A DNA stretch of 32,284 nt from Baffinella frigidus (taxonomy: Eukaryota; Cryptophyceae; Cryptomonadales; Baffinellaceae): the NCBI GenBank assembly GCA_026770585.1, contig MU646426.1, positions 81,504 to 113,787 on the forward strand, given 5' to 3'. Below are positions 907 to 31,966 of this stretch, piece after piece. Each line of letters opens with the position of its first letter. The first letter of the stretch is position 1. Made by a program: the position numbers and the translations under genes. A model generated the notes under the pieces. That model ran no database searches, was not told the DNA's origin, and worked only from the letters and a program-made list of their open reading frames with translations.

Positions 907-997
907 GTGCGGCTGACGATGTTCGGGGCAGCTGCAAAGGAGTATGGGGGGGGGGCAGACGCGGAAGCGCTGGCTGGCGCTGTGGCTGGCGAAATGG
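907..997 (+). CDS. Internal exon of gene alpha (unknown protein)
   Basis: The exon is preceded by the acceptor TTGGCAG and followed by the donor GTATGC. It starts in phase 0 and ends in phase 1. The reading is VRLTMFGAAAKEYGGG followed by ADAEALAGAVAGEM plus one base of a Gly codon, a small-residue-rich helical segment. Partial copies of its 5' boundary lie upstream (13-398) and of its 3' boundary downstream (1081-1660), which brackets the true exon. I do not recognise the family. The other exons of this gene lie left of the window or in the uninterpreted 1.0-2.0 kb stretch. Confidence 0.5.
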
Positions 998-1014
998 GTA
1001 TGCGCTCAATCTGA

Positions 1015-1625
1015 GAGAGAGGGAGAAAGTGACTTTACTAATATTGAGAGAGAGAAAGTGACTTTACTAATCTCCCCGACTGGCGCGGTGGCGGGCGAAA
1101 TGGGTGCGCGCCTCCCCGATTCAATTTCGGGCTTTTATTCGCGGTATATGAAGGTGTATATGCTATCTCTTGGCATACAACCCATGCCTAACATCGCATA
1201 AAAGAACAACAGCATCCTTTGTGGCTGGCGAAATGGGTGCGCGCCTCCCCGGTTGCTTGAGGATTGTAAAGCCACTGTCTCTGTCTCAAAGCGAGAGATG
1301 TTGCAGGAGCGTCAAATGTTGAAGGAGCTTCAAATGTTGTAGGAGCGTCAAATGTTGAAGGAGCGTGAGATGCGAGAGTGACTTGACGCCTCCCCGATTG
1401 AGAGAGAGAAAGTGACTTTACTAATCTCCGAGAGAAAGTGTCTTTACTAAGCTCCGAGAGGAAGTGACTTTACTAAGCTCCTGGCGCTGTGGCTGGCGAA
1501 ATGGGTACGCTCTAAATCTCCCCGCTTGAGAGAGAGAAAGCGACTTTACAATTCTCCCTGATTGAGAGAGGGACAGCGACTTTACTATTCTTCCCGATTG
1601 AGAGAGAAAAAGCGACTTGACGATT
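1015..1625 (+). repeat. Degenerate tandem array with four donor-side ghosts of the alpha exon
   Basis: The repeated unit is AGAGAGAAAGTGACTTTACT followed by AATCTCCCCGATTG, in about eight irregular copies. Interspersed are copies of the alpha exon end and its donor: 1081-1110, 1221-1242, 1481-1510 and 1631-1660. Each resembles GGCTGGCGAAATGG|GTGCGC, with donor variants GTACGC and GCGCGC. At 1303-1378 an 18-bp repeat (GGAGCGTCAAATGTTGAA) occurs four times. I see no convincing exon in this stretch. Confidence 0.55.
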
Positions 1626-1720
1626 CTCCAAAGCGCTGGCGGGCGAAACGGGCGCGCGCCACTGATTCAGTTGTATTTTTTATGCTACGGTGGGCTGTTA
1701 TTCGCGGACAAACGGTGCTG

Positions 1721-1897
1721 TCCCCCCTGGGCCACGCAACGATAACCTGTGTACCAAATCCGACCCGTCTTTCTATTATTCCTGCACTGCTAAAAGTGGT
1801 TTTCTTCGGAATCCGCGCAAAGTTGACAGATTTGTGGGCGAGTTGACTTTGAAAACAGGCCAATTTGATACACAGGCCATCGTCGCGTGGGGCAGAG
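1721..1897. mobile_element. Palindromic element with about 35-bp inverted ends
   Basis: The left arm is CCCCTGGGCCACGCAACGAT then ACCTGTGTACCAAAT. The right arm is ATTTGATACACAGG then CCATCGTCGCGTGGGGCAG, and it reads back as the complement of the left with a few mismatches. The middle contains an AAAGTTGACAG motif. No coding capacity is seen. It belongs to the general palindromic-element population of this window, but I found no second full copy. Confidence 0.5.
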
Positions 1898-1988
1898 ATT
1901 CCTGCGAGAGCCCGTAACCTGCCCCCCCCCGTGCAGGGATGGTCGGGGGAAAACGGGTCAGTTTCCTCCAGATAAACTGTATCCTTGC

Positions 1989-2092
1989 TATCCCTTAAGT
2001 GACCAGTAGGCTCATACGCCCTACCGTAGGGCCCTAGGACCTGCCTAGGACCTCTTGGCCCTCAGATTTGTCGACATGGCCACTTAAGGGTT
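1989..2092. mobile_element. Family C MITE-like element, copy 1
   Basis: Ends are TATCCCTTAAGTGACCAG and, on the right, CATGGCCACTTAAGGGTTA, which are near-perfect inverted repeats. The interior has ACGCCCTACCGTAGGGCCCT then AGGACCTGCCTAGGACC, again the CCTACCGTAGGG core. A second copy in inverted orientation is at 2338-2445. Confidence 0.65.
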
Positions 2093-2147
2093 ATCATAAA
2101 CGGCGCTGCCCCCCCTCTACATAAACGGTTCATTTCCCTGAAGAAAC

Positions 2148-2207: not shown

Positions 2208-2228
2208 CTGAGCCTCTTCCATAACCTG

Positions 2229-2305: not shown

Positions 2306-2337
2306 ACTGAGACCCTCAAGGCCTTGGAGGAAGGGAA

Positions 2338-2445: not shown

Positions 2446-2538
2446 ACGATGGCCATGTTGGGTTTGATTCGTAATAAACGCACGTTTCTCTCTGTTTTGC
2501 CATGTTATCCACCCTCAACAAGTCGGTGGATGTATCAC

Positions 2539-3984: not shown

Positions 3985-6900
3985 CTGCGTGCGGGCTTCG
4001 GGTTTCGGTTTCGGGGGCACGCCACAAGACGTCCCAGCCCGCTCGCGCACACTCCCTCGAGATCAGGGGGGAACCAAGGAGCAAAAAATCTTGAATCCAC
4101 TGTTAGCATATGCTTGAGATTTTTTGCTCCTTGGTGTTGATGCCTGCGAGAGAACGCGACTTTACTGCGCCGCCTTACCCGGGTGAGGCGGCGCCTGACA
4201 GCCAGCGCCGTGTTTTCTGTGTGTTGTGGTTGATCTGGTGAGGATTTGGGGGTTGGGGCTTAGGGCTTGGGGCTTGCGGCGTGCTGCGGTTCAAGCCAGC
4301 GCCGCGCTTGCGGCGTGCTGGGGTTTGGGGTTTGGGGTTTGGGGTTTGGGGTTTGGGGTTTGGGGTTTGGGGTTTGGGGTTTGGGGTTTGGGGTTTGGGG
4401 TATCTGGGTTCGGGTTTGGGGTTTAGGATTTGTGGTTAGAGGTTTAATATTTAGGGTGTGCGGCGTGCTGTGGTCGAGGCACTGTATGCAGTCAAGACTT
4501 GGTGATGGCGTGTGGGACGCGTGCCTGTACTCTATTCCAGGCTCGTGAGTAATGCCGACACTGTACTCTATTCTAAGCTTGAGAGTACTAAAGAAGCACA
4601 AGGAGGAGGCTCTCGCTTCGGTGGACGTGAATATAGAGACATGTGTAGCCCGCCACCGCATTGCTCGCCTGTAAGGCCTTACTCTATGTCCTTAACCCCA
4701 AATACCAAACCCTCTAGACTTGCGAGCCACAAAGGAGGAGGCTCTCACCTTGGCGAAGGTGAAAATGGACACACACGTATAGCCCGTCACCATATTGCTA
4801 GTAGACCATTGGACCACTCAACATCAGGTTCGAGAGTGCTCACGGTTCGGGAGTAATCAAGTTTCGAACGTGATAAAGAAGAAGAAGAGAAGAAGGAGGA
4901 GGCGTGTCTGGGTGGAGGTGAAGATGGACACGCACGTGTAGCCCGTGACATCTACTCTATTCCCCAAGCCCTACACCCTCAGCCCTCTAGACTTGCGAGT
5001 AATAGAGAAGGCTTGCCTGGGTCGCCGTGAAGATGGACACGCACGTGTAGCCCGTGACCGAATTGCTCGTCTGGCCGCAATCCTGCGATCCACGGACCCG
5101 CCTCAGGAACCAGGCGCCCGCCTCAGGGCAAATCCCCCGACGGCCCCACCTCAGGGCAAAATTCCCACGGGCCCACCTCAGGGCAAAATCCCCACGGACC
5201 CGCCTAAGGGCAAATACCCCGACGGGCCCACCTCAGGGCAAAATCCCAACTGGCACGCCTCGGGCAGAATCACCAACCTCATACATAAGGATTGCCCTAG
5301 CTGTGGACTCATTTATTTGCACCGCCTCAGGGGAAATCCCCCGACAGGCCCGCCTCAGAACTACCGCAGAGCAAAATCCCCTACCTCCGTTCCGCCACAA
5401 AGAGAGCTGCAAAGACTCTTCAGTAAAGTCGCTTCAGGACCACGGGCCCGCTTCAGGGCAAAGTCACCTCATTCAGTAGGATTACCCTAGCGGTGGACTT
5501 TGCCTGCCTGAGGGCAAATGCCCCGACGGGCCCGCCTCAGGACTGCCGCAGGGCAAAATCCCCAACCTCCGTTCCGCTACAAAGACTCTTTAGTAACGTC
5601 GCTTCAGAAACACGGACCCGCCTCAGGGCAAAATCACCACCCTCCGTTCCGCTACAAAGAGAGCTGCACATAATCTTCATTAACGTTGCTTCAGAACCAC
5701 GAGCCCGCCTCAGGGCAAAATCACCATCCTCATACAGACGGTTTACCCTAGCTGTGGACTTATTCATTGTGACCGCCTCAGGGCGAAGTCCCCCGACGGG
5801 CCCGCTTCAGGAGCAAAAATCCCGCCTCAGGACTACCTCAGGGCAAAATCCCCACCCTCCGTTCCGCTACAAAGAGGGCTGCAAAGACTATTCAGCCAAT
5901 TGACCAAGGTCCAGTAAATTTCATGCATGGTTTCTGGAGAGGGGAGGCAATGGTACCGAGCTCTCCGGGCAGAGCGCGATGCCCTCCTTGTCGGTGACCG
6001 GCTTCCCATCTTCGTCAATGAGATCTGCCGAGGGGAGAACGCGCGTTTCCACTCAGCAGGGCTACAATACAGTCCATCTAAACGCCGTGGAGCCCCCAGT
6101 GGCTGCATGGATAAGATTCTAGTGCACTTCGTTTAGATGGACTGTATTGTCTGCTCAGTGAAAACTTCCCATCTTTGTCGATGAGGTGTGCCGATGGGGA
6201 TAGCGAATGCCGGTTAGAACCTGGCGAATGCCGGTTACAACCCCCCCCCCGTCACCATCACACTCCCTCTGTCATCAACCACCGTGCCCTCCTTGTCGGT
6301 GACCGGTTTCCCATCTTCGGTCTGCCGAGGGTCGAGGAACGCGCGGTTGTTACGGACAAACGCAACAATGCAGTCTGCCGATGGGAGAAGAAAGTGCGGG
6401 TTGGGGGGAAACACGAATCAGGTTAACAAAAATAGAATCGAGGTGCGGGAGAGAAACGTGCGTTTGTTACGGACCGAAATCGACTTTGCCTCCTCGTAAT
6501 CCCTTGCGTGAGGCAGAGGGGTTCCCATCAGATTTCATACGCAAACACTTATTATAAACTGGATCCAATGAAATTTACTACACATAACGATCTTTACTAG
6601 TAATATTAAAGCAAACGTGTAGTACCTTTCATTGAAACCAAGTTTATAAATTACAAGTGTTTGCATATGAGGTTATGGTTTCCGCAGCGAGTGCCGGTTA
6701 CAACCCCCCCCTCCTCGTCATCATCACACTCCCCCTGTCATCAACAACATTTGTACCTGAACCCGAGGCCGGATTCTGGCCTCGGACTTTCAGAACGTTG
6801 GGGGGGGGGGAAACATCTTCCGAAAATAGAATCGCATGTTCCGACGGCCCTCGCGAGCGGACCTGCGCAGGACTCGTCGTAGAGGTTCTCGTTGCTCTTA

Positions 6901-8189
6901 CCGTAGTGAATACTGTAGTGAATACCGTAGTGAATACCATAGTGAATACCGTAGTCAATACCGTAGTCAATACCGTAGTCAATACCGTAGTGAATGCCGT
7001 GGGCTCAACTACCCTGAATTAAGGCCGTGGCCCTATCAACCTGCGAAACATTCGTCGTTGATGTTCTCGAGAGGGCGACAGGTAGACACAGAGGGAGCGA
7101 GAGAGGGATAGGGCGAGGGAGGAAGGGAGAGAGGGAGGAAGGGAGAGAGGGAGGGAGGGAGGGAGGGAGAGAGAAAGAGAGAGAGGGTGAGAGGGTGAGA
7201 GCGAGAGAGCAAGATAGCGAGAGAGAGAGAGCGCAACCTGCGAAGGATTCGTCGTAGAGGTTCTCGTTACATTTGAAGTCCCCGACACCGAAGTGGTGCT
7301 TCACCTTCTTCTCCACATCCACCTACCCGAGGCGTTGATCAATTAGTATCACACACATTCTAATTAATAACTGGAGATCATCTCCACGTCAACCTATCCC
7401 CGAGGCGGGCCCATCAGAACCAGCCACTTATGGGACATCGGCCACTTACTGTCAGAACCGAGGCGGGCCGATCCGTCATGCACGGGCTTTGTGTCAGCAC
7501 CACAGTTGACTGAACCAGCACAGGTTTGTACCAGGCCGATCCCTCAACCGGGAAGGAACAGTACCACAGAAACCTGACATGAGTCAACACCTCCATCTTC
7601 ATGGGCGAGGCCATGCAATTCAAACCGTGTTTTTGCTATCTTGGGGTGGTCTTTGTCCTATGGTAAAGCTATGTCGACGCTAAAATAGCAAAATCTGACA
7701 AAATCCACCCTTAATATAGCATATAAGGCGGTTTAAATCGCATGACTTTGGACACTAATCTCCACATTCACCTGCCCCCGAGGCGGACCCGTCAGCCACT
7801 TAGGGGATATCGGCCACTTACTATCAGTACCGAGGCGGGCCCGTCAGCTCCTGCTGGCCACTTATGGTATGTCGGCCACTTACTGTCAGAAACGAGGCGG
7901 GACGATCTGTACACACGCACGCTTCTCTCCCCTGGGCAGACTTCAATAGGGCAACGGCCTGAAAATGGGGTAGTTAGGCCTACGGCATTGCCTAGGAACT
8001 CCTACCGTAGGCCGATACTTTTTGGTCCTAGGATCCCTCGGCCTACGGTAGGAGGTCCTAGGCAATGCCGTATGCCTAACTACCCCATTTTCAGGCCGTT
8101 ACCCTATGAACTTGACCGACACGGACGGCGGTTGGCTGTCCGGAGAGCGTGGTTCTCTCTCTCTCTCTCTCTCTCCCCCCCCCCCTCTT

Positions 8190-21760: not shown

Positions 21761-24700
21761 GTGAGTTCCGCTCTTCCTCGGAGCACGCAGTGGCTCGCCG
21801 GTCGACTCGCACTGCTGGGCAAAATACCTCGTTAGTAGTACCCTCCTCCCAGTAGGCTCTTCCATCGGCTAACGGAGGTGTCTGTTTGGGGGAGCAGGGC
21901 AGGAGGCAAAGATCATCCGGATCGTGCGCGACCTCGAGGAACGCACTGAGGACTCCTGGGACTTCCTGTGGGGCGAAACAGGCGACACAGTATCAACAAT
22001 GAGGTCCTGAGAGCACCGCACTTCCAGGGTGGTTCTTGCGTGATGGTGGCTCTGGTCCAGAGATCCCTTTTGGAGGTTGGCGGAGCCTCTTCGAATGACA
22101 TTCCCCACACCGGGAAACGCGAGAACATTCAGCTCCTGCCTCTGTCCACTACCAAATCATCGATTTTAGACTTGAGATTTACCCTTTGCAGAAACCCCAG
22201 ATCCGGGGTCTCTGCACGGGTAAACCAAGGGCGAATCTGAGATCCAAAATCGACGATGTGGTCCAATCGTGAGGGCTGGTGGGTCCAGGGGCTGAAAAGT
22301 CCTGCCGCCCGAAAAGCATCGGAATGCAGAAAGCGACACGCCTGCTGAACCACCAACAACCCGGTGCAGCTTTTAACCGGATCGGGTACAACAGTGTTTT
22401 TCAGCTAAACCCAAAAAACCTCTTGAGTACTTCCCGTCAGCAATTCGAGGTCCCTACCACGCCAGAGTGGAGGAGGGGGTTGCATTTTTTGAAATCTGTC
22501 TGATAAGGTTCTTTGACTTTTGAAAACCACTGCCTTGAGGAGAAATCGACTTTTCGCAACCCCTTCCAACAATCTGGCGTGGTAGGGTTTTCTTCCGTAG
22601 GGTCCTACGAATAATTTTAAAAAAAGAATTTCATTTCCGGATCTTGCAAGGATCCGGTAAAAGCTGCTACGGGTTGCTGGTGGGAAACCTACCCGCCATG
22701 TTCATAGGGGTAACGTCCTGAAAACCGAGTAGTTGGGCCTACGGTATCGCCTAAGGTAGGCCGTAGGGACCAGGGGGGACCCTACGAAACATTAGGTCCT
22801 AGGAGCCCTACGGCCTACCGTAGACAATACCGTAGGCCTAACTACCCGGTTTTCAGGACGTTACCCTATTAATGTGTTCGACACACCGGATGTCTAGCTC
22901 TCCCTCAGTCGGGTTGGCTGGCGATTCTTAAGTTGACTTGCTGGGGTTGTGTCTTAAGTTGACATGCTGGGGTTGTGTGGAGGTGTGGGGGGGGCCTTCG
23001 TGGCCATGAAGATATCAACAAACGCCTCTCCTACCACGCCAGAGTGGAGGAGGGTGTTAATGCTTTTAAACCGTATGTGGATACGGTTGTTAACTTTTGA
23101 AAACCACTGCATTGAGGGGAAATTAACTTTTGGCAACACCTTCCAAGAATCTGGCGTGGTGCGCACAGCTAGCGCGCGGTTGAAACCGCAGGGTGGCACT
23201 GCCGCTGTCGCCGGGGGCTCGTTTTGGAGAGGAGAGACTTTGACCTTTTCAGGGTAACATCGCGCAGGTAGGAGGAGGGGTTCACCCGTGAAACCGCAGA
23301 GTGCACGCTCTATGACCCTACGATGGTCCCAGGGGGAGGGGTGCGCCTAAACACTCAACATTAAACACTAAACACTAAACACTAAACACTAAACGCTAAA
23401 CACTAATCCCCTAAATACTAAACACTAAACACTTAACACTAAACACTACACACTAAACCCTAAACCAAACCCGGCAGGTGGGAGGAGGTGACGCTGTGGC
23501 TGGCCGCGATGGGCGCACCTTTTGAAGCGATCCAGGTTAATCTCCACAAAAGTATTAATTCATTGCTTTTGGCGCAACGAATTTTACCACACAAATGCTT
23601 TTACTGTTACTTTTATGAGCAAATCGTGTAGTAATTTTCGTTGCCAAAAAGAAATTAATTAACACTTCTGTGGAGATGAAGGTGCCCACCAACCTTCACG
23701 CCACTCGAGGCTAGAAATATGACCATTGTAAAACTGGGATTCTTTTACAAGTGAAGGAAAAAAAGGTGGGTGTAGTAATTTTCACACAAATTTGGGGCGT
23801 TTGGTCACGTTACTGGGGATATTCCCCCAGTCACGTGACCAAGCCTGCCCGTGACTGGTACTGAGGAAGTCACGCTGTGGCTGGCCGCGATGGGCGCGCC
23901 GTTTGAAGCGATCCAAGTGCCCACCACACAGCGGACTTCGAAGGGATTTCGAATAACCCCTAAGCGATCAGACCTAGGACCCTATGGTAGGCAACCCGTA
24001 GGGACATAGGGGGGTTCCTACGGACAAGGTAGCGATCCAGGTGCCCACCAACCCACACAGCGGACCACGCAGGGACTTTCGACCCAGATCGGGCCACCTT
24101 TTCGTTACCTTACCCGTAGGAACCCCCCTATATCCCTACTGGTTGCCTACCGTAGGGTCCTAGGTCTTATCGCTGAGGGGCTATTCAAAATCCCTTCAAA
24201 GTCCGCTGTGTGAAACTCTCACAGCCTGGGCAAATCGTCGATTTTTGGGATCCATTTTCCCCTGGGAGGCCGTCGAATTCCTAGGGTGGCTACTACTGCG
24301 AAAACAGGTTCAATCTAAAGCGCTTTTTTGGTGCTATCTTAAGTGTAAACGTTGGTATTTTAGCCCCCACATAGCTTTTCTATAGCACAACACCCAACCC
24401 TAAGATAAAAACGAGGTGATTTAATTTAGCAACGAGGTGATTTAATTCAAATTGAATCTGTTTCCATGAGAGTGAGTACTCACATGGAAACTGTTGAGCT
24501 TTTCTGGGAAAGGAAACTCTTGACCCCGCCAGAATGATCGAGGGAACCCGACGCCTTATCCGCGTCAGATCTGACGCAGTTGACTTAAGAATTCAAGGCA
24601 TTTTCCTTGAAAGATGTCAAAAGTGGATGTTTCGAGTGCCCTGGCGTGGGAGCTTTATCTCTTACTCTTGAGCTTTTCCTAGTACACCGCCTGCTAGGAT

Positions 24701-24973
24701 CTCATCTCGTCAGGTGTTTGATTTAAATGGTTCGGAGCCCCCGGAATGCACGAAATTTACTACACGTTTGTCACGTCCAGCCCTTATTATTACTAGTAGG
24801 AGCAAACGTGTAGTAAATTTCGTGCATTCCGGGGACTCCGAACCATTTAGATCAAATGCCAGGATGGGGTCAGTTATCGTCCTGATACAGAGTTGCTCGG
24901 TTATGTCAACTAGTGGCACAACCGTGGTCTGTATGAAGTCACTCGTCCCTCTCTTTCTGCCTCGCTCTCTTCC

Positions 24974-25023
<50 letters not shown>

Positions 25024-25180
25024 TCTTCTCTCTCTCTTTCCCTCCCTCCCTCTCTATCACCCCCTCCCTCTCTATGTCCAGCAATACAAGTAACCCCCCC
25101 TCCCCGCCCGCGCGGATGTAGGTACAGCAGCGAGACCAACATTCCGAACAGGACATTGAGGACTACCTCACCGCCTCCCG

Positions 25181-25214
<34 letters not shown>

Positions 25215-28200
25215 CCCCCTCTCTCTCTGTCTCTCTGTCTCTTTCTCTCTTCCTCTCTCTCTCCCTCCCCCTCTCCCTCTCTCTCTCTCTCTCTCTCCCT
25301 CTCTCTCTCTCTTTCCAGCAATATAAGTTACCCCTTCCGGCGGATTCAGGTGCAGCAACGCGACCAACATTCCGGACAGGACATCGAGGACTACCTCACC
25401 GCCTCGCTCACCGACTCCGAGGGCATCCACAAGGTCAGGTTATCAGAAAAGAGTGCCGGTACAAATCTGTCAACTTTGCAACGGGATAGCGCCCGCGCTC
25501 ACCAAAGTGGTTGGCCCAAACAGACTGAGACAGAGCACCGGCGCTGTGAGTGAGACGCGGTCTGTGAAGGCAGACTCCGGACAAGAGCGCACCCCCAGGC
25601 AAATTTGGCAACTTAAGATTATTTTTCCCACAGGGCGATCAGAATCTGATCGCCCCGTGATGAATGGATTCTGGTATTAAATGGCTTTACAAGTATTATA
25701 GTGGTACTAAACGTGTCAACTTTTGCGATAAAGGGTTATTCAGCATTTAACCCCGGGTAGGCTCCTGTCCGGCTCAGACGAGCCCTCCTCGGGGTGAGAG
25801 ACCCGACCTCCTTAGCAGCCACGGATACAGTCCATCTAAACGGATACAGTCCATCTAAACTATTTTTTCTAGAATCTTATACATTGCCCTCTAACCTAAC
25901 GGGAATTTCACCTTGCATTCAAGGCGAAAAGGTCCTCGGTCGCTGCTAAGTGGAAAGCCACTTTCTCTCCCGCCACCCAGCGGGCTCCGAAGGAAGTTTC
26001 GACCGATAACCCGGTCGAAATGTCGCTTGGTAAGATGTCTGATGTTAACCGAACAATTATTAATTGGTCATTTAGAACGAAACTTCATGGACCGAATTAC
26101 GACGAAACTGAATGGCCCGATTCACGAAGCCCACGGTGTGGGCGAGACGACGTTGGTGAAGTGTCTCGGAGGGCATGCCACACAGCGGACTTCGAAGGGA
26201 TTTCGAATAACCCCTAAGCGATCAGACCTAGGGCCCTACGGTAGGCAACCCGTAGGGACATAGGGGGGTTCCTGCGGATAAGGTAACGGAAACTCGGGCA
26301 ATGAGCGCCCGAAAATCCCTTCGTAGCCCTCTGTGTGGTACACTAATCTCCATACAAGTATTAATTAATTGCTTTCGGCAACGAAAATTACTACACGATT
26401 TGCTCATAAAAGTAATAGTCAAGCGTTTGTGTAGTAAATTTCGTTGCACCAAAAGCAATTAATTTATACTTTTGTGGAGATGAACACGGTCAGAGAGCCG
26501 TCCTGCCAGTAGAGCGTTTGCGGTGATTGTTGTCCGTTTTGAAAGTACGGTTTTCCGGTTTTACGGTTTTCATGTGCCCCCCCCCCCGATTCATTTGTAC
26601 CAGAGAAGTGTCCATTTAAAACATTCAACGACCTTTACAACATTTTAAAAAACCGTAAAACCGGAAAACCGTACTTTCAAAACGGACAACAATTACCGCA
26701 AACGCTCTACCTTGATCTGACTCCCGTGAGTGAAGCCAAGTTGGCTTCCTCAAATTCACGTTCGGTAAGCCCTAAATAAAAGTTGACACACCTGGGTCAG
26801 ATCAGGAATACCCCTTCCCCTCCTGCGGGGGGAGGGGTATTCCTGATATGAAAATCAGGTCTGTAGGGCATCTCATGTGGAAACCGATTCAATTTAAATC
26901 TCGTGTGGAAACTCGTGTGAAAACCGATTCAAGTGTGGAAACCGATTGTCATGTGGAAACCGACTCAATTTGACCACTTACGTCGTCTCTCTCTGGCCGT
27001 TGGCCACAGCTGTGACCAACGGCCAGAGAGAGACGACGTAAGTGAACTGACTCGACAGTTTTTTTTCGCTGCCACGGCTTTCCAGCAATAAACTCCTCTC
27101 CCCCTAATACCCCCCCCCCCCACTGCAGGCTGTGACAATGGTCGGCCTTAGTGAACTGCCTTGGAGGGCATGTACACGGTTACAGAGACATCCTGCTCAT
27201 ACCCTGCCCCCTGCAGGGAGGGGTATTATGAAGACGGTCAGAGAGAGATGACGTCAGTGACCTGACTCTCGAGGTTTTCCGCTGTCACGGCTTTCCAGCA
27301 ATAAACTCCTCCCGCCCTAACACCCCCCCCCTCCCTGCAGGCTGTGACAATGTTCGGCGTGACGCGCAAGATGGCGGTGCGCCTCTACATGAACATGCGC
27401 TTGCGACGAAAACAGGCCGCCCAGGCAAGTGCCCTGCCGTTCGCACTGGTGTTAGCGGTTAGGCCCGTTCGCACTGCTGTTAGCTAACACTACGTCCCGG
27501 GTAGGCAAACGAAATCACCCCGGTCGGGGGGGGGAGGGGGGGTGGGGGTTGTGGGTATGATCTCAGCTTGCGAGGGAAGCAGGCGGCCCAGACAATCGCC
27601 CCCTCTACGGTGATAGCGGTTAGGCCCTGGGTTGCCACACCAGGTCTCCTCGGTCGGGGGGGGCATGGTGGACATGTTGCATGTGATCCGATCTCATTTG
27701 AAAACGGTTTTAATTTAAAACCATTGGAGTCAATGAAAATTACTACACGAATGCTTTGATATTACTAGTAAAATTCATTGTGTGTAGTAAATTTCATTGC
27801 CAGCAAGTTTTAAATTAAAACCGATTCCCTATGAGATCCACGGTGTATTTCGCGAAATAGGGGTTAGTGGATAGGGGTTGGGGGTTAGGGGATTGGGGAT
27901 ACGGCGAAGCGTGTCATCCATCGCAGACATGAACATATGATCACATTAATATGTGATCAGATGAGCGAATGGTCAAATGGCAGTGAGTGGTCAAATGGTC
28001 GAATAGTCAAATGACAGGCATCGGAGGAAGGCACGCAGCGCTCCTGATCGAATGCGTACGTGATCACAGCCATGAGTGTGCGATCACGTTATCGTGTGCC
28101 GAAATGGTCAAATGTCAGTCACGTTATCATGTGACAAAACGGTCAAATGTCAGTCACGTTATCATGTGCCAAAATGGTCAAATCGCAGGCATCGGATGAA

Positions 28201-30986
28201 GGGACGCAGTGCTCCTGATCAAAAGCATATTTGATCCCAACCATGAGTGAGCAAACTGGTCAAAATCGTCGTGTGACGAAATGGTCAAATGGCAGTCCTC
28301 GGAGGACGTGACGCAGCGCTCCGTGCTCAACACCATCCACGAACTCGTCGACATTGTCCAGGTCCGTAACCTTAAGGAATCCTCTTCACTCAGCGAGATA
28401 GACCACACGAGGCTATCCCATGTCTCAATTTAAAATCGGGTTTAAATCATGTAGTAATTTTTATGTGTTTGGTCGGATAGAAAGACCCGATACACGCTTT
28501 GCGTGCCACCTAAACACTCCCATACAAAACGGCACAGTTGACTTTTATTCTGGGTGCATGGGCAGCCTCGTGTGGAAGCGGGTTTCGCATCTGTTGGGCA
28601 CGAAAACACGAAAAGGAAATGGGGCGACCCACTGTACAAACCCGCCAGACCTATTGTAGATTTCGGCTTAGCACGGAATTTTGGGAGATCAGGTCGGGAG
28701 ATCGGGAACCGAAAAAAAGTGAAAATGAACCGAAAGGGTGTATTTTACGGGTGGGGGTTGCGATCTTGTCATCAAATCCATGCGTAAAATAGCATAACAC
28801 TTTAGATGGACGTGAAAATTATCGCGATTTTTTCGATTTTCTCGATCCCCCGACCCCAAGTGAATTCCGCGCTAAGCCGAAATCTACAATATCCGCGGCA
28901 CTTGACCGCAACGAGCCTATGGCGAGCGATCGTGTGGTGGGCTAACGCGCGTGTCCAGATGAAATTTAGTGGATGCACACAATATCAAAAACTCCCTTAG
29001 TTTCCAGGGAGAAGAGTTTGTCAGCCTGGTCAAAACGATCAAAGTTGACAGGTTGACATTTGACGTGATTTCAGATTGTCAAGCGCGTGACAGGAGGCAC
29101 CCTCTGGCGTTGCATCACTCGGGTTGACCGACTATTCTCAAGTTGACACACTGGGTCTGCGGTACAAATCCGTCAACTTTGGGGTGAAAAAAAGCCCGGG
29201 CACACCGGTACACATCGGGAGCACCAAATGGTCGAGCCTGAACAGACTGAGTCAGAGCTATGCCCTCCCTCGGCAGGACATGCGGACGCGAGGGTTCGTC
29301 GTCTCCAAGTTCGCCTCCTCCCCATAGGCTACAAAACGAGCCTCATCCCACCAAAGCGGTGAAATAGACTGAGACGGAGCTATGCCCTCCCTCAGGACGG
29401 TACCACGGCGCAGCTGCCGCTCTGTGGTTGGACACGGTGAAGGGCGTGTGCCATACGGCGAAGCGTGTGTTAGCCCAAGTAGACTGAAACCAAGCTATGT
29501 CATCGGCAGGATATGCGGACGCAAGGTTTCGGGCGGTACCACGGCGCGGCGGCCGTCGCTTCGAAGTTCGCCTCCAACCGCGGGGTGGACGCGCTGGTGA
29601 GGGGGTGAGGGTTCAGGGGTTTAGGGGGTTAGGCTTTAGGGTTTAGAACGCCCGCGGCACCTTCCCCGCGACACGGGCGAGATGCGGTCATGGGCGAAAC
29701 CCTTAACAGCAAACCATGTGCATCGTGGTAGGTGCGGATAGCGAGGGAGGGGCACGACGAGACGTCCACCGCGGCCCTCTGGGCCCTCGTGCTCCTCTCC
29801 GACTCCTCGGAGGTGCGAAACCCTAGACTTTGAACCCCTAAACCGTTAAAACAACCCAACCCCCAAACCCCCTAAATCCTCAACTCATCAACTCCTTAAT
29901 CCTAACTTTTAACACCCTGAAGCCCCTATCCCCCTAAAACGCTATCTTCATGAACCTCAAAAATTTAAATCCTACACCCTAAATTCTTTACTCCCTAAAA
30001 TCCTAAATCTCTAAACCCTAAACCCTGAACTCTGAACCCTGAACCCTGAACCATGAAGTAGGTGCGGCCGTCAGAGGCATCGCGAGAGGAGGCAGCGCGT
30101 CGCTTCGACATCCGCAAGCTCATCGTAAAGGTGCGCCAGATGATCAGAAAGGGGGCCTCAAATGCATATCAAGGTGCTCCGAATGCATATAAAGATGCGT
30201 CAAATGCATAGAAACGCCTTGACACCCGCAAGCTCGTTGCCAAGGTGCGTCCAATGCAAACAGATCACCAGAAAGATACGCCAGATTATGATAAATTGCG
30301 CTCAAGATGCGCAAAATGATCACAAAGAAAGGGGGGGCCTCAAATGCATATAAAGGTGCCTCAAATGCATGTAAATGCCTTTGACATCCAAGGAGCCTCA
30401 AATGCAGATAAAGGTGCGCCAAACACAAAAAACTCTGTATCATAAAGGTGCGCTAAATGATCGTAAAAGTGCGCCAACGGCGTCAAGGCGTTCCGGCGGG
30501 ATCTCACCACGAAGGGCTCTTGGGGGGTTATTCAAAAGTCAATTTGCCAAGGAAAAACGATATTCAAAAGTCAATTTTCAATTGAAAATGGCTCCAAGGG
30601 TGACCCAACGGCTCCAAGAACGGGGCTGGGATGACCCTCGAAGGGCCCTGCGTGGCACGGAAACTACTTTGATTTGAAACACGGTTTTGCTATCGTACGG
30701 GTGGGTTTTGTGCAATGGTAAAGCTACGTCCAGTCTAAGATGGCAAACCCCACTCGTAAGATAGCACATACCGGTGTTTTAAGATGATTATGGCGTCTCG
30801 TTTCTAATAATAAAGATAGCTGTTTCTGGCTTCTCGTTTTTCATTATAAAGATAGCTGATTCTGGCTTCTCGTTCTTGATAATAAAGAAAGTTTTTAATA
30901 GTAAAGATTTTTCCTGGCGTGTGTTGCAGGCGGACGGGGCTAACGTAATGCTGGAGGTGATTGAAACGAGGCCTGAGGACGCGTAA
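21749..30986 (+). CDS. Gene delta: spliced gene, SAM-like domain plus armadillo/HEAT-like repeats (whole span)
   Basis: Exons in order: 21749-21760, 21903-21989, 23485-23535, 25350-25433, 27341-27424, 28296-28361, 29075-29122, 29510-29596, 29732-29812, 30062-30130, 30470-30526 and 30930-30986 (TAA). Nearly all are multiples of three in phase 0, so each could be skipped without frameshift. Exons 3-5 together (about 73 residues) resemble a SAM domain: EVTLWLAAMG helix, DIEDYL, SLTDSEGI and MFGVTRKMAVRLYM. Exons 8-10 read like an armadillo/HEAT helix pair (GVDALVRIAREGHDETSTAA). An adaptor or scaffold role in the cytosol is inferred. Exons may be missing between 21990 and 23484. Confidence 0.6.
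21903..21989 (+). CDS. Delta exon 2
   Basis: The acceptor AGCAGGGCAG precedes GAGGCAAAGATC and the donor is GTATCA (a GC donor after GAAACAG is an alternative). It reads EAKIIRIVRDLEERTEDSWD then FLWGETGDT: a charged helix ending in an aromatic stretch. Phase 0 at both ends. No ghost copies were found for this exon. Confidence 0.6.
22454..22585. mobile_element. Family H element, copy 2
   Basis: The ends CTACCACGCCAGAGTGGAGG and AACAATCTGGCGTGGTAG are inverted. The interior has CTTTTGAAAACCACTGCCTT then GAGGAGAAATCGACTTTT. Closely related to 23031-23161. Confidence 0.75.
22704..22869. mobile_element. Family G element, diverged complete copy
   Basis: Ends ATAGGGGTAACGTCCTGAAA and TTTCAGGACGTTACCCTAT; arms CGAGTAGTTGGGCCTACGGT and CCGTAGGCCTAACTACCCGG. 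Compared with 7946-8107 the arms differ at paired positions (CGTCCTG/CAGGACG here, CGGCCTG/CAGGCCG there), i.e. the pairing is kept. Confidence 0.75.
23031..23161. mobile_element. Family H element, copy 3
   Basis: The ends CTACCACGCCAGAGTGGAGG and CAAGAATCTGGCGTGGTG are inverted. The interior CTTTTGAAAACCACTGCATT then GAGGGGAAATTAACTTTTGG parallels copy 2. Confidence 0.75.
23345..23470 (+). repeat. C-rich telomere-like array (ACACTAA)n
   Basis: About fourteen units of CTAAACA/CTAACAC type ending in CCCTAAACC. It ends ten bases before the acceptor of the next delta exon and may serve as its pyrimidine-containing tract. Confidence 0.9.
23485..23535 (+). CDS. Delta exon 3: first part of a SAM-like domain
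   Basis: The acceptor GGTGGGAG precedes GAGGTGACGCTG; CGGCAG seven bases upstream would add W-E in phase 2. It reads EVTLWLAAMGAPFEAIQ. The present donor is GTTAAT, but the downstream ghost shows AAGTGCCC and a third copy CAG|GTGCCC, so the original donor was probably GTGCCC, with a family-E element now inserted two to four bases into the intron. W-L hydrophobic spacing matches SAM helix 1. Confidence 0.6.
23540..23677. mobile_element. Family E element, copy inserted at a splice donor
   Basis: Ends ATCTCCACAAAAGTATTAAT and TTAACACTTCTGTGGAGAT. The core is ATTTTACCACACAAATGCTT and GAGCAAATCGTGTAGTAATT. It starts four bases after the end of delta exon 3. The sequence on its far side, AAGGTGCCCACCAAC, is what follows the exon in the ghosts. 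Confidence 0.8.
23862..24053 (+). repeat. Two donor-side ghosts of delta exon 3
   Basis: 23862-23924: TGAGGAAGTCACGCTGTGGC through GCGATCCAAGTGCCCACC, nearly the full exon (AAG in place of CAG|G). 24031-24053: AGCGATCCAGGTGCCCACCA only. A family-A element begins right after each (23925-24031 and 24054-24212). Upstream at 23800-23850 is a small hairpin, TTGGTCACGTTACTGGGG / CCCCAGTCACGTGACCAA. Confidence 0.75.
23925..24031. mobile_element. Family A element, truncated
   Basis: CACACAGCGGACTTCGAAGG through GACCTAGGACCCTATGGTAG, CCCGTAGGGACATAGGGGGG and CGGACAAGGTAGCG. It lacks the other terminal repeat. It is followed by a ghost and then by an inverted full copy. Confidence 0.7.
24054..24212. 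mobile_element. Family A element, complete
   Basis: Ends CACACAGCGGACCACGCAGG and CCTTCAAAGTCCGCTGTGTG; the interior has CCCTACTGGTTGCCTACCGT then AGGGTCCTAGG. Confidence 0.75.
24325..24405. repeat. Family F-like element
   Basis: TTTTTTGGTGCTATCTTAAG, GGTATTTTAGCCCCCACATA and TCTATAGCACAACACCC, ending CCCTAAGATA. Self-complementary TGCTATCTTA/TAAGATA and GTGCTAT/ATAGCAC words. At 24465-24495 a separate short hairpin GTTTCCATGAGAGTGAGTAC / TCACATGGAAAC. Confidence 0.45.
24717..24856. mobile_element. Family E element (arm type 'TTTGATTTAAATGGTTCGGAG')
   Basis: Outer arms TTTGATTTAAATGGTTCGGA and TCCGAACCATTTAGATCAAA, continued by GCCCCCGGAATGCACGAAAT and its complement. Core TTTACTACACGTTTG and CAAACGTGTAGTAAA around TTATTATTACTAGTAGG. 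About 60 bp of arm per side with few mismatches. Confidence 0.85.
24957..25076 (+). repeat. CT-rich tract
   Basis: (CT)n with TTCTTCTT and TCCCTCCC interruptions, directly before the acceptor-side ghost of delta exon 4. Confidence 0.95.
25077..25180 (+). repeat. Acceptor-side ghost of delta exon 4
   Basis: It copies both intron end (GTCCAGCAATACAAGTAACC) and exon: GATGTAG|GTACAGCAGCGA then GACCAACATTCCGAACAGGA, reading VQQRDQHSEQDIEDYLTAS before the similarity ends at a CT tract. The intact exon repeats the same order 220 bp later, with a second CT tract between them. Confidence 0.8.
25181..25316 (+). repeat. CT-rich tract between ghost and exon
   Basis: (CT)n with GTCT and CCCT interruptions. 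It would act as an unusually long polypyrimidine tract for delta exon 4. Confidence 0.95.
25350..25433 (+). CDS. Delta exon 4: middle of a SAM-like domain
   Basis: The acceptor GCGGATTCAG precedes GTGCAGCAACGC; the donor is GTCAGG. 28 codons, phase 0-0: VQQRDQHSGQDIEDYLTASL then TDSEGIHK. Acidic; LTDSEGI matches the position of the LTxxDL turn in SAM domains. Confidence 0.75.
25456..25540 (+). mobile_element. Family D repeat
   Basis: GGTACAAATCTGTCAACTTT then AGCGCCCGCGCTCACCAAAG and TTGGCCCAAACAGACTGAGA. It lies just downstream of delta exon 4. In the following stretch to 26178 I see no exon; there is a hairpin GGCGATCAGAATCTGATCGCC at about 25636 and a doubled GGATACAGTCCATCTAAAC (family J arm) at 25824-25860. 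Confidence 0.65.
26179..26337. mobile_element. Family A element, complete
   Basis: Ends CACACAGCGGACTTCGAAGG and TTCGTAGCCCTCTGTGTG; interior GACCTAGGGCCCTACGGTAG then GCAACCCGTAGGGACATAGG. Immediately followed by a family-E element. Confidence 0.8.
26346..26481. mobile_element. Family E element, copy 3 of the ATCTCC arm type
   Basis: Ends ATCTCCATACAAGTATTAAT and ATTTATACTTTTGTGGAGAT; core AAATTACTACACGATTTGCT and AAGCGTTTGTGTAGTAAATT. About 90% similar to 23540-23677 but in opposite core orientation. Confidence 0.8.
26511..26708. mobile_element. Long palindromic element, about 198 bp
   Basis: The left arm AGAGCGTTTGCGGTGATTGT then TGTCCGTTTTGAAAGTACGG and TTTTCCGGTTTTACGGTTTT pairs almost perfectly with the right arm ending CGCAAACGCTCT. 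The unpaired middle is about 80 bp. Confidence 0.8.
26804..26965. repeat. Hairpin and short tandem block
   Basis: ATCAGGAATACCCCTTCCCC faces GGGGAGGGGTATTCCTGAT (26804-26849). Then 26876-26965 holds four copies of CATGTGGAAACCGATTCAA and variants. Confidence 0.7.
26975..27044. repeat. Near-perfect 70-bp palindrome
   Basis: CACTTACGTCGTCTCTCTCT then GGCCGTTGGCCACAGCT, followed by its complement with a single mismatch and no loop. Each arm ends in a GTAAGTG donor-like word facing outwards. Confidence 0.85.
27030..27148 (+). repeat. Acceptor-side ghost of delta exon 5
   Basis: AGAGAGACGACGTAAGTGAA, CACGGCTTTCCAGCAATAAA, CCCACTGCAGGCTGTGACAA then TGGTCGG matches 27237-27360 in order and spacing: about 100 nt of intron end and 15-20 nt of exon. 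Between the two lies 90 bp of unique text. Confidence 0.8.
27341..27424 (+). CDS. Delta exon 5: end of the SAM-like domain, GC donor
   Basis: The acceptor TCCCTGCAG precedes GCTGTGACAATG; the donor is GCAAGT (GC-AG, otherwise consensus). 28 codons, phase 0-0: AVTMFGVTRKMAVRLYMNMR then LRRKQAAQ, a basic helix. MFGVTRKMAVRL corresponds to the LGI-K-G-R turn and last helix of SAM. Confidence 0.75.
27560..27630 (+). repeat. Donor-side ghost of delta exon 5
   Basis: AGCTTGCGAGGGAAGCAGGC then GGCCCAGACAATCGCCCC, reading LRGKQAAQ, followed by GATAGCGGTTAGGCCCTGG. The intact exon is followed by CTGGTGTTAGCGGTTAGGCC in the same order. The donor is destroyed (GACAAT). Confidence 0.7.
27690..27838. mobile_element. 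Family E element (arm type 'GATCTCATTTGAAAACGG')
   Basis: Outer arms GATCTCATTTGAAAACGGTT and AACCGATTCCCTATGAGATC; TTTAATTTAAAACC and TTTTAAATTAAAACC inside. Core AATGAAAATTACTACACGAA and TGTGTAGTAAATTTCATT around GATATTACTAGTAAA. Confidence 0.8.
27955..28295 (+). repeat. Acceptor-side ghosts of delta exon 6
   Basis: The branch/acceptor word GAAATGGTCAAATGGCAG recurs about eight times with variants (GGTCAAATGTCAGTCACGTT). Two copies carry exon text: 28013-28055 (GACAGGCATCGGAGGAAGGC then ACGCAGCGCTCCTGATC) and 28188-28225 (GCAGGCATCGGATGAAGGGA then CGCAGTGCTCCTGATC). All are upstream of the intact exon. Confidence 0.75.
28296..28361 (+). CDS. Delta exon 6
   Basis: The acceptor AAATGGCAG precedes TCCTCGGAGGAC; the donor is GTCCGT. 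22 codons, phase 0-0: SSEDVTQRSVLNTIHELVDI then VQ, an amphipathic helix. It links the SAM-like part to the helical repeats. Confidence 0.7.
28735..28800. repeat. Family F-like hairpin
   Basis: TGTATTTTACGGGTGGGGGT faces AATCCATGCGTAAAATAGCA. Two outer copies of GTAGATTTCGGCTTAGC(A/G)C occur as an inverted pair at 28658 and 28868. No exon is seen in 28362-29074. Confidence 0.4.
29075..29122 (+). CDS. Probable delta exon 7
   Basis: The acceptor GTGATTTCAG precedes ATTGTCAAGCGC. Reading IVKRVTGGTLWRCITR, with the weak donor GTTGAC; an earlier GTTGCA (phase 1) is possible. It is the least certain of the delta exons because no ghost marks its limits, and a family-D element begins shortly after. 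Confidence 0.45.
29156..29262 (+). mobile_element. Family D repeat
   Basis: GCGGTACAAATCCGTCAACT then AAAAGCCCGGGCACACCGG, an extra ACACATCGGGAGCACC, and AGCCTGAACAGACTGAGTCA. A third AGACTGAGACGGAGCTATGC lies at 29368, showing partial duplication. Confidence 0.6.
29268..29430 (+). repeat. Acceptor-side and internal ghosts of delta exon 8
   Basis: 29268-29325: TCGGCAG|GACATGCGGACGC then GAGGGTTCGTCGTCTCCAAG, reading DMRTRGFVVSKFASSP then stop. 29395-29430: CAGGACGGTACCACGGCGCA then GCTGCCGCTCTGTGG. Both are upstream of the intact exon; the word CAGAGCTATGCCCTCCCTC precedes each. Confidence 0.7.
29510..29596 (+). CDS. Delta exon 8: start of the armadillo/HEAT-like region
   Basis: The acceptor CATCGGCAG precedes GATATGCGGACG; the donor is GTGAGG. 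29 codons, phase 0-0: DMRTQGFGRYHGAAAVASKF then ASNRGVDAL. The last residues continue in the next exon as an ALVRIA helix start. The reading frame is supported by the ghost FVVSKFASS. Confidence 0.65.
29732..29812 (+). CDS. Delta exon 9: armadillo/HEAT-like helices
   Basis: The acceptor CATCGTGGTAG precedes GTGCGGATAGCG; the donor is GTGCGA. 27 codons, phase 0-0: VRIAREGHDETSTAALWALV then LLSDSSE. The pattern matches the armadillo consensus second and third helix (ALVxLL-x-G-x-AAxALxxLS). GC-rich, free of repeats. Just upstream is a short G-rich array (29600-29646). Confidence 0.7.
29820..30056 (+). repeat. Degenerate C-rich telomere-like array
   Basis: CCCCTAAACC, CCCCCTAAATCC, CCTAAATCTCTAAACCCTAA and CTGAACCCTGAACCCTGAAC fill the intron between delta exons 9 and 10. 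Confidence 0.9.
30062..30130 (+). CDS. Delta exon 10
   Basis: The acceptor CATGAAGTAG precedes GTGCGGCCGTCA; the donor is GTGCGC. 23 codons, phase 0-0: VRPSEASREEAARRFDIRKL then IVK, a strongly charged helix. At least three partial copies of its 3' end follow in the next intron. Confidence 0.7.
30131..30469 (+). repeat. Intron made of repeated delta exon 10 donor boundaries
   Basis: 30205-30248 CGCCTTGACACCCGCAAGCT then CGTTGCCAAG|GTGCGTCC is a clear exon-end copy (LDTRKLVAK). 30388-30400 keeps TTTGACATCCAAG. The minimal unit AAAG|GTGCGCCAAATGATC recurs at about 30128, 30165, 30238, 30304, 30352, 30407, 30444 and 30465. Between copies are CCTCAAATGCATATAAAGGT units. Confidence 0.75.
30470..30526 (+). 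CDS. Probable delta exon 11
   Basis: The preceding AG (CGTAAAAG) is weak as an acceptor. The reading CANGVKAFRRDLTTKGSWG runs to GTTATT. A diverged copy of the same stretch (ACCCAACGGCTCCAAG then GATGACCCTCGAAGGGCCCT) follows at 30598-30655, as expected for a donor-side ghost of a real exon. Limits are approximate. Confidence 0.4.
30598..30655 (+). repeat. Donor-side ghost of delta exon 11
   Basis: GTGACCCAACGGCTCCAAGA then GGGATGACCCTCGAAGGGCC parallels GTGCGCCAACGGCGTCAAGG then GGGATCTCACCACGAAGGGC. Between the two is a short inverted word, ATTCAAAAGTCAATTTGCCA and TATTCAAAAGTCAATTTTCA. Confidence 0.5.
30683..30780. mobile_element. Family F element
   Basis: GGTTTTGCTATCGTACGGGT, GGGTTTTGTGCAATGGTAAA, GCTACGTCCAGTCTAAGATG then GCAAACCCCACTCGTAAGAT, AGCACATA. 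It aligns along its length with 7630-7728, 23 kb away. Confidence 0.65.
30789..30900 (+). repeat. About 41-bp tandem repeat, three units
   Basis: TCTGGCTTCTCGTTTTTCAT then TATAAAGATAGCTGAT and variants, in the last delta intron. Confidence 0.75.
30930..30986 (+). CDS. Delta terminal exon
   Basis: The acceptor CGTGTGTTGCAG precedes GCGGACGGGGCT; reading ADGANVMLEVIETRPEDA then TAA (30984-30986). It is an acidic C-terminus. A diverged copy of the last 38 nt including the stop follows at 31133-31174. Confidence 0.7.
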   Translation, partial: ADGANVMLEVIETRPEDA

Positions 30987-31080
30987 CCCCCAAACCCTAC
31001 ACCCTGAAACTCCCTGAAAACTCCCCACAAACTCCCTCAACACTCCCGAATCCCTCCCGAAACCCTCCCGCCACCCTACA

Positions 31081-31290
31081 ACCTACACCCTACACCCTAC
31101 ACCCTACACCCTACATTTCACACCCCATACCCCACATGCTGGAGCTGATCCAAACACGACCCGACGACGCGTAACCCCCAAACCCCAAACCCCAAACCCC
31201 AATCTACAAACCCCCAACCCCAAACCCCAAACCCCAAACCCCAAACCCCAAACCCCAAACCCCAAACCCCAAACCCCAAACCCCAACCCC
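31081..31290 (+). repeat. Telomere-like arrays and a ghost of the delta terminal exon
   Basis: 31083-31114 is (CCCTACA)n; 31133-31174 is the ghost CACATGCTGGAGCTGATCCA then AACACGACCCGACGACGCGT, AA, reading MLELIQTRPDDA and stop. 31175-31288 is (CCCCAAA)n with about thirteen units. The intact terminal exon is followed by the same CCCCCAAACCC text, so the 3' flank was duplicated too. Confidence 0.8.
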
Positions 31291-31294
31291 CCCC

Positions 31295-31580
31295 ACTCCT
31301 CACCCCTCACCAAACCAAACCAAAAAAACCTCAAAAAAATCAACCCCCCCGCAAACAAAGCCAAACCAACCCCTCCCCAAAAAGACAACCCCCAAAAAAC
31401 CCACACACACTCAATAAAAACCACACCCGAAACCAGGTGCCAGCTAGCGCCCCACCTGCTCCGGGCACTTCTCGCGTTCCAAAACGAACCCAATCGAACC
31501 CACGCAAACCAAAACAAAACACCACAAACCCAAACACACCCAAACAAACCCAAACAAACCCAAACAGAACAAAACAAAAT
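31295..31580 (-). repeat. Donor/3'-side ghost of the epsilon terminal exon in A/C-rich low-complexity DNA
   Basis: 31482-31434 on the minus strand reads GGAACGCGAGAAGTGCCCGG then AGCAGGTGGGGCGCTAGCTG and GCACCTGGTTTCGGG, a copy of the exon at 31580-31647 with an internal stop. The rest is CCAAACAAACCC and CCCAAAAAACC simple sequence, which could contain the 3' ends of both converging genes. Confidence 0.6.
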
Positions 31581-31647
31581 CAAACCCCGAAACTAGGTGC
31601 CAGCTCGCGCTCCACCTGCTGCGCGCACTTCTCGCGTTTCCGAACAA
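31580..31647 (-). CDS. Epsilon terminal exon (gene continues beyond the right edge)
   Basis: The acceptor GGGCCGATCCAG precedes TTGTTCGGAAAC; phase 1 start. Reading VRKRKEC-like: VRKREKCAQQVERELAPSFG then V and TGA (31580-31582). A basic/acidic amphipathic C-terminus. An acceptor-side ghost lies upstream at 31926-31966 and a 3'-side ghost downstream at 31434-31482. The family is not recognisable from one exon. Converges tail-to-tail with delta. Confidence 0.5.
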
Positions 31648-31966
31648 CTGGATCGGCCCGTCTGGGACAGTACACCCCAAACCATAAACCATAATCATGC
31701 AGAAAGTTTAGATAAAAGAAGGACTTAGGACGCGACTCCGTACAACATTTACAATGCAAAACAATCTTGGGCTTTAAAAGTCTTGGAATTGCTTTTAAAA
31801 TCGTTTTAGTGGTGACACGTCCCCCTTTAACGAGGGACTTGAGGTGCCCACCAACATACGCATTCGGCATTACTAAACGATAATGAGAAAAACGCGTGTT
31901 TGAAGAGGACTTATCTGGACGCGACGCGGTGCAAACTGGATCGGCCCGTCCGGGACAGTATAGAGC
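31648..31966 (-). repeat. Epsilon intron with an acceptor-side ghost
   Basis: 31966-31926 on the minus strand reads CTATACTGTCCCGGACGGGC then CGATCCAG|TTTGCACC. The intact copy is TACTGTCCCAGACGGGCCGA then TCCAG|TTGTTCGG at about 31672-31640. In between: GGACTTAGGACGCGACTCCG and GGACTTATCTGGACGCGACG as a diverged direct repeat, plus AATCTTGGGCTTTAAAAGTC. Confidence 0.6.

Follow-up and report, generated by a model that had tools for sequence, protein, structure and literature searches.

How does an intron become long? Growth of this kind is seldom visible step by step, despite the common large differences in intron size. In a stretch of 32,284 nucleotides (nt) of the Baffinella frigidus genome (contig MU646426.1, positions 81,504 to 113,787; hereafter the window), the introns carry partial copies of the edges of the neighbouring exons. 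A first-pass annotation of the window, made from the sequence alone, had attributed these copies to an insertion process acting at splice junctions or close to them, by which tens of flanking bases are duplicated. I performed a computational analysis of the window and of other loci, and this interpretation was partly supported. The copies are probably the products of short duplications, tens to about 200 base pairs (bp) long and mostly with an insert, that have occurred in place again and again throughout the introns, extend into the exon edges, and are filtered by selection on the exons.

Partial copies of exon edges and their sides

The analysed genome consists of 382 megabases in 1364 contigs, in which the window is G000:C124:81504-113787; it is evidently rich in introns. 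The left half of the window carries a minus-strand gene (or genes) starting at 21561, and the right half carries a plus-strand gene. Twenty-two exons were checked: ten are contiguous in a homologue named P0004, two match other homologues, and ten were read by me. The exon calls were made independently of the copies wherever possible. Each exon with 60 nt of flank was aligned to the 2 kilobases (kb) on either side, with true exons blanked and a score cut-off of 34. The scan was run on masked sequence, and an unmasked run was made for four exons only.

One or more partial copies of a boundary were found close to 17 of the 22 exons (8/10 on the plus strand and 9/12 on the minus strand); the first-pass annotation had counted at least 17 such exons. 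The window as a whole holds 149 local direct-repeat pairs (score of at least 36, less than 1500 bp apart, simple sequence masked), while each of five dinucleotide shuffles holds none. The first-pass annotation had stated that copies of the acceptor side lie only upstream of the exon and copies of the donor side only downstream. This is true for 39 of the 40 boundary copies, and the exception is at 18285-18335. In the plus-strand gene all 12 copies are on the predicted side, including an E12 copy that came from the unmasked run only and was added by hand. The minus-strand exons have 27 of 28 on the predicted side, two of which (exon N) end 2 nt before the junction. Against random pasting the binomial p is about 7e-11, although copies that share an exon are partly dependent on one another. 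Three of the examples that had been singled out, 11052-11114, 12478-12556 and 27341-27424, have copies on both sides. At 7238-7322 the two donor-side copies were recovered, while the acceptor-side copies proposed at 7380 and 7758 are below the cut-off. The exon given as 31580-31647 is 31597-31669 by homology, and it has copies on both sides.

The ends of the copies are sharp. Identity is 0.87 in the last 12 nt inside a copy and 0.28 at 4-18 nt past the break, a contrast which is somewhat inflated by the way local alignments end. The copies reach 9-95 nt into the exon before the break, and this depth, scaled to exon length, is not significantly different from uniform (Kolmogorov-Smirnov p=0.097), as random breakpoints predict. 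Divergence is alike in the exon part (0.864 identity over 544 nt) and in the intron part (0.870 over 990 nt). Three copies are interior, derived from inside an exon away from its edge: 29395-29419, which lies upstream of E8 and corresponds to its positions 22-46, and 15807-15862 and 15250-15273, both of exon H. In the scans of either strand, none of the copies was assigned to the class that covers an exon from junction to junction. In some exons with both kinds of copy, the upstream and downstream breakpoints lie within 8 nt of each other, which was judged non-significant by hand only.

Copies in other genes

Is this pattern confined to the window? Nine chaperonin exons (PF00118; loci L032-L040) and eight exons of two HSP70 genes (L041 and L042) were tested. 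Their cores were taken from Pfam matches, with approximate ends, and a tenth PF00118 match (L031), whose exon was not placed, was excluded. Three of the 17 exons have copies, and all eight boundary copies are on the predicted side. One donor-side copy lies downstream of the exon in L033. In L040 there are two short upstream copies from near the exon start, classed as interior. The HSP70 exon h3 of L042 has four acceptor-side copies upstream and three donor-side copies downstream; the break is at exon position 41 in three of the four upstream copies and at position 45 in each of the three downstream ones. Two pairs of the spacers between upstream copies at L042 are partly homologous (s2 with s3, and s2 with s4), and this locus is better explained by a tandem amplification that was altered later. 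Thus the copy pattern reaches beyond the window, yet the window is richer in copies than the conserved genes tested.

Local direct repeats cover 13-36% of the unmasked bases in eight other 10-kb loci and 35% in the window; therefore, the duplication process is general. The eight loci are those with at least 1 kb unmasked, namely 7 of 20 random loci and L009, which adjoins the window; 12 of the 20 random loci are all N, and two more have less than 2 kb unmasked.

At G000:C709:130108-134621, two full-length HSP70 matches lie in opposite orientation, each as a single open frame and apparently intronless. Elsewhere in the genome, HSP70 matches are fragmented.

Probable duplication in place

When a stretch spanning an acceptor site is duplicated in place, a truncated copy is left upstream; when the stretch spans a donor site, the copy is left downstream. 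Random pasting gives either side equally. The rule follows for any duplicated stretch, with or without an insert between the two copies, because the intact exon is simply the copy that is still joined to the remainder of the exon. Thus, the observed sides indicate that the duplications occurred in place, and they are uninformative on whether splice sites are targeted. The first-pass annotation had argued that tandem duplication does not predict truncation. By the same logic this is mistaken, since any duplicated stretch that begins in the intron and ends in the exon, or the reverse, necessarily yields a truncated copy, and on the predicted side. Its view that introns grow while one intact exon is kept is supported: the order of the copies beside the parent fits in-place duplication, in which the introns grow and one whole exon survives.

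In the process that I favour, short stretches would be duplicated in place anywhere in an intron, sometimes reaching an exon edge. In each event a staggered break may have been repaired, or the template switched, with the flank copied and joined to other DNA. A minority would be plain abutting tandem duplications, some of which may later have been amplified into arrays. Duplications that break an exon would be purged by selection, so that truncated outer-side copies are the survivors. Palindromic elements and telomere-like arrays would enter independently, sometimes between or inside copies.

What lies between a copy and its parent? For 17 of the 22 nearest copies (one per exon side), the two are parted by 40-325 nt without extended similarity, and the aligned part of the nearest copies is 24-222 nt in length. 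Sharp-ended flanks of tens of bp, duplicated directly on the two sides of filler, are also what staggered-break or patch-mediated repair, or template switching, leaves, and the perfect 40-nt repeat around an insert in locus L006 is of this form. The other five nearest copies, those of E4, E10, E12, the acceptor side of E13, and the donor side of L, abut the parent with a gap of at most 20 nt. Thus the form of a plain tandem duplication, abutting and without filler, is taken by a minority only. With an anchored measure of the gap, such abutment applies to 5 of all 39 copies; a looser earlier measure gave 6/39. An insert between successive copies had been said to be always present and to be a palindromic element, a telomere-like array, or a CT/GA tract. 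In fact, it is usual rather than constant, and its nature is usually different: among all adjacent spaced repeat pairs of the window, whatever their kind, a palindrome or simple array occupies more than a quarter of the spacer in 24 of 80, against 30.9 ± 4.3 under random placement, which is no enrichment.

All the copies might instead be plain tandem duplications by slippage or unequal exchange, in which case the inserts would be later arrivals or decayed remnants of the unit. The five abutting copies suit this explanation, as do two arrays (147 bp repeated 3.2 times and 35 bp repeated 2.9 times), the partly homologous spacers of L042, and the E3 spacer, which contains a later-arrived element. 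Plain tandem cases are seen at 24946-25405, 31320-31645 and 10602-11077. The unaligned spacers of the 17 nearest copies argue against it as a general account. A later insertion would be expected mostly to hit the inside of a copy rather than the point between two, and identity falls abruptly without fading. I therefore regard this explanation as rather unlikely for the whole set.

Since the original form of the exon edge persists, each truncated copy gives both the date and the orientation of a duplication. With so dense a record, the rates, sizes, and breakpoints of intron growth could be measured directly, and a genome of this kind would allow a test of whether introns are enlarged by break repair.

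Splice junctions and recurrent breakpoints

Are splice junctions preferred? Of 43 junctions, 27 are clean, that is, neither masked nor palindromic. With each junction counted once, 11 of the 27 are spanned by repeats, against a fraction of 0.31 of the clean intron positions (p=0.195). At an identity of at least 90%, the count on both strands is 5/27 against 0.09 (p=0.07). Purely intronic duplications are common, and 49 pairs right of position 5900 touch no listed exon. Targeting of splice junctions is thus not established, and the small numbers may leave room for up to an approximately twofold preference. Of the proposed process, the duplication of flank, mostly with an insert, is retained and its action at splice junctions is not.

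Several observations weigh against duplication at any position of the intron followed by selection. At the level of repeat pairs, 33 of 87 lie at junctions, against 14.0 ± 4.1 expected; the plus-strand gene alone has 8 of 21 pairs at junctions against 3.8 (p=0.025), and pairs of at least 90% identity have 13/29 against 3.6. This pair-level enrichment was set aside because multi-copy families are counted repeatedly and the shifted null includes masked sequence. In the junction-level test, minus-strand junctions at 90% identity or more give 5/15 against 0.13 (p=0.03), the only subset below 0.05. There is no whole-exon copy, where about 11% are expected without selection, and interior copies are below the expected 17%; these shares are all that the simulation behind them informs, as it assigns sides by rule. 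The copy at 18285-18335, from the acceptor side of exon D on the minus strand, is on the wrong side, downstream of the exon. Finally, the coupling of duplication and insertion in one event is inferred from a single genome.

Recurrent breakage at fixed points, such as palindrome axes or particular exon sites, might drive the duplications, and the introns of this lineage would then be assembled through successive rounds of break repair. The downstream unit of L042 extends from exon position 45 to what seems, by eye, to be the middle of a palindromic element, and most upstream copies there (three of four) stop at position 41. If true, exon edges would be a fossil record of intron-building break repair, but I consider this unlikely.

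A dedicated insertion process that aims at splice junctions and makes long target-site duplications is more doubtful still. It would account for the pair-level excess at junctions and for the insert beside 17 of the 22 nearest copies, and the L042 breaks recur at exon positions 41 and 45 as if one site had been cut repeatedly. Tandem amplification gives the L042 pattern too. The overall junction-level test is not significant, the 49 purely intronic pairs are left aside by such a process, and the depth of the breakpoints is not significantly non-uniform.

Intron growth or intron birth

Do the copies mark the birth of introns? An exon stretch with AG|GT may have been duplicated, and its two copies may have become the donor and the acceptor. 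By eye, the intron start resembles the start of the next exon in L040/L036 (VIPN/VIPK) and in exons g3/g4 of HSP70 L041 (5193/5436, VFER/VFEG). Also by eye, copies in the B intron continue through sequence that is uninterrupted in the homologue P0003, and the relatives P0005 and P0006 are without introns that are present in the plus-strand gene. P0005, on a 910-bp contig, has E8, E9, E10, E12 and E13 contiguous without the four introns there; a 30-residue insert within its E12 is taken for its own unspliced intron. P0006 has E8 and E9 fused. P0002 and P0006 attest to relatives at 84-88% protein identity. Unspliced-looking stretches suggest that P0005 and P0006 derive from DNA and not from spliced RNA. 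Against intron birth, the similarity in register of intron start and intron end is 10.5 of 30 in 11 introns and 9.6 ± 2.5 in mismatched pairs, and the contiguous repeat length in 20 introns is 3.60 in matched and 3.51 in mismatched pairs. Since neither test found duplicated junction sequence at the intron ends, the copies are better read as intron growth than as intron origin, and an origin by this route is very improbable.

Whole exons might have been duplicated in tandem and the spare copies might have decayed from one side. One copy of exon H is almost complete (exon positions 8-104 of 102), and two copies of exon K lie at an equal distance of 159 nt on its two sides. The cuts are sharp, however, and no copy is of the class that spans both junctions, which makes this decay still less credible than intron birth.

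Palindromic elements and telomere-like arrays

Least probable of all is that the transposition of palindromic elements itself duplicates tens of flanking bases: one element lies between two perfect 40-nt copies in locus L006 and another, by eye, between two donor-side copies of about 45 nt in L003, but two elements have target duplications of only 2 and 4 bp when compared with uninterrupted copies, the direct repeat in the flank is longer in few elements (score of at least 28 in 6 of 74 and at least 36 in 2 of 74), and palindromes are not enriched between copies.

The two checkable cases are as follows. The element at 11312-11478 is inserted in a copy of exon L, with a 2-bp target duplication (TA) relative to the uninterrupted exon sequence. 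The element at 23537-23680 lies at the E3 donor, with a 4-bp duplication (AGGT) relative to the uninterrupted copies 23904-23926 and 24031-24060. The palindromic elements have inverted repeats, TA and AGGT duplications (in these two comparisons), and dozens of dispersed matches (one family), in common with miniature inverted-repeat transposable elements. Thus, in the cases open to checking, they arrive by ordinary insertion with short duplications, and the copies of tens of bases have another source. Between the two 40-nt copies of L006, the element has its own 4-bp duplication inside the insert. By eye, a fragment of the family of the L003 element lies between copies in locus L005 and at 11216-11273.

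Partial palindromic elements that end near the symmetry axis, some of them at duplication junctions, were noted by eye at 17231-17337 and 11216-11273 in the window and at 3342-3822 in L042. A tally of the truncation points was set aside, as the library was mixed with a composite element and telomere-like sequence. Across the window (1-32284), several palindromic families with different arms have, by eye, a common CCTACGGTAGG-like centre.

The telomere-like arrays are C-rich on the coding strand in 39 of 41 cases (two-sided p about 8e-10). This count covers positions 4001-32284 of the window and loci L031-L034, L036-L039, L041 and L042, with overlaps merged and each window half taken as one gene direction. 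For the telomere-like 7-mers, the two halves of the window give counts of 136:8 and 49:9, its first 4 kb gives 4:3, and the conserved-gene loci, a set with some overlaps, give 471:19. Long CT/GA stretches have no strand bias (12 versus 11). The copy density is unusual, and so is the orientation of these arrays. The orientation with the gene is a separate lead on selection on G-rich repeats or on their strand-specific insertion.

Relation to known systems

Tandem duplication with or without filler occurs at repaired staggered breaks, as in patch-mediated repair in rice and paired-nick repair in plants. There, as in the window, tens to hundreds of flanking bases are duplicated in place, often with filler, anywhere in the genome. 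In contrast, only end products are seen here, they are dense beside exons, and their single-step origin is inferred.

Introners also place inverted-repeat elements with short target duplications in introns. According to the accessible parts of the reports, some introner families have 3-9 bp duplications (PMC9860276), and those of Amoebophrya have direct repeats of 3-5 nt together with inverted repeats of 8-20 nt (PMC7789003). Compared with these repeats, the window copies are far longer, tens to about 200 nt. The window introns are mostly far longer than one element as well: 20 introns are 135-2671 nt, whereas palindromic elements are 26-399 nt, in overall lengths and not as element-by-element coverage. 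No element boundary is evident at the intron ends, and in these 20 introns a short introner-type target duplication exactly at the ends was not found (3.60 matched versus 3.51 mismatched, as above).

In every one of the 213 introns that they examined, Rogers and Bendich (2025) described 4-30 bp direct repeats close to the borders (PMC11782384, from the accessible text). Like the copies in the window, those repeats lie at or near splice junctions, and they are read there as traces of insertion and break repair. They pair the two ends of one intron, as far as that text goes, whereas those of the window are mostly longer, pair a junction with the intron interior, and are often multi-copy. Interstitial telomeric repeats are inserted at repaired breaks, according to the accessible part of another report (PMC2246262). 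On the same basis, the window arrays resemble them in lying inside genes, often beside boundary copies, and differ in being strongly oriented with the gene, while insertion at breaks is known for the interstitial repeats only. In a search of literature titles and abstract openings, which left subscription journals mostly outside, no prior description of multi-copy, side-ordered copies of exon edges was found.

Exons and copies along the window

The plus-strand gene was assembled by reading frame and splice signals and then used for a homologue search. P0004 (384 amino acids) matches the entire query, and the corrected chain aligns with it without a break across E2, E3, E4, E5, E6, E8, E9, E10, E12 and E13. 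The introns with copies had been assigned to five genes; for the right half this is unsupported, as P0004 covers E2-E13 as one gene. Guessed plus-strand exons at 29073 and 30473 were dropped, as P0004 skips both. A Pfam search of four pieces gave no match.

All ten of these exons are contiguous in P0004. For E2 (21903-22003) no boundary copy was found. E3 (23478-23535) has a donor-side copy downstream at 23863-23918 (alignment score 87). E4 (25350-25433) is preceded by a nearly abutting tandem copy at 24946-25177, which comprises a CT tract, the intron end, and the E4 start (unique part 25102-25160). E5 (27341-27424) has an acceptor-side copy upstream at 27019-27146, followed by an insert at 27147-27233, and a donor-side copy downstream at 27580-27627. 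Two acceptor-side copies, 28162-28228 and 28002-28044, lie upstream of E6 (28296-28361), and one, 29244-29298, lies upstream of E8 (29510-29596), an exon which is also present in P0005 and P0006. No boundary copy of E9 (29732-29812) was found. Downstream of E10 (30062-30130) are two donor-side copies, of which 30215-30256 is the abutting one and the other is 30439-30495. The donor-side copy of E12 (30930-30982), downstream at 31136-31192, was seen in the unmasked run only, and a telomere-like array lies partly within the repeat. E13 (31597-31669) has an acceptor-side copy upstream at 31429-31478, part of an abutting tandem copy at 31320-31485, and a donor-side copy downstream at 31934-31960.

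On the minus strand, the first exon, A (21091-21561), has homologues in P0002 (88% identity) and P0003 (63%), and no copy of it was found. By eye, P0003 extends from exon A into exon B (20392-20438), which was called from this continuation and from sequence reading. Exon B has no copy in the masked scan; short copies of it (ATGTCCAACAGGCAG...) were seen by eye amid telomere-like arrays at about 19981, 20099 and 20296. A homologue search with the minus-strand gene assembly gave no match, and the ten exons D, F-I and K-O are putative, without homologue support. They were called from open frame and splice signals, in part by the first-pass annotation itself. A long N run occupies 18617-19566, and N runs are also present in many sampled loci; given these, the contigs may be gapped scaffolds.

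Putative exon D (18499-18567) has four donor-side copies downstream, at 18160-18226, 17999-18051, 17664-17725 and 17507-17559. Donor-side copies also accompany putative exons F (17015-17143; copies at 16791-16855 and 16594-16631) and G (16241-16344; copies at 16062-16122 and 15918-15955). Putative exon H (15044-15145) has donor-side copies at 14802-14898 and 14610-14702 and acceptor-side copies at 15494-15620 and 15417-15493. Four acceptor-side copies, 13899-13922, 14094-14124, 14267-14351 and 14354-14375, belong to putative exon I (13737-13838). For putative exon M (8321-8380) no copy was found. Putative exon K (12478-12556) has acceptor-side copies at 12676-12729 and 12855-12881 and a donor-side copy at 12301-12335. 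The acceptor-side copy of putative exon L (11052-11114) is at 11268-11313, and its donor-side copies, at 10605-10636, 10698-10784 and 10845-10931, are borne by the 147-bp array, which extends from 10602 to 11077. The two donor-side copies of putative exon N (7238-7322) that end short of the junction are 6865-6893 and 7043-7069, and putative exon O (5957-6024) has acceptor-side copies at 6285-6348 and 6165-6200.

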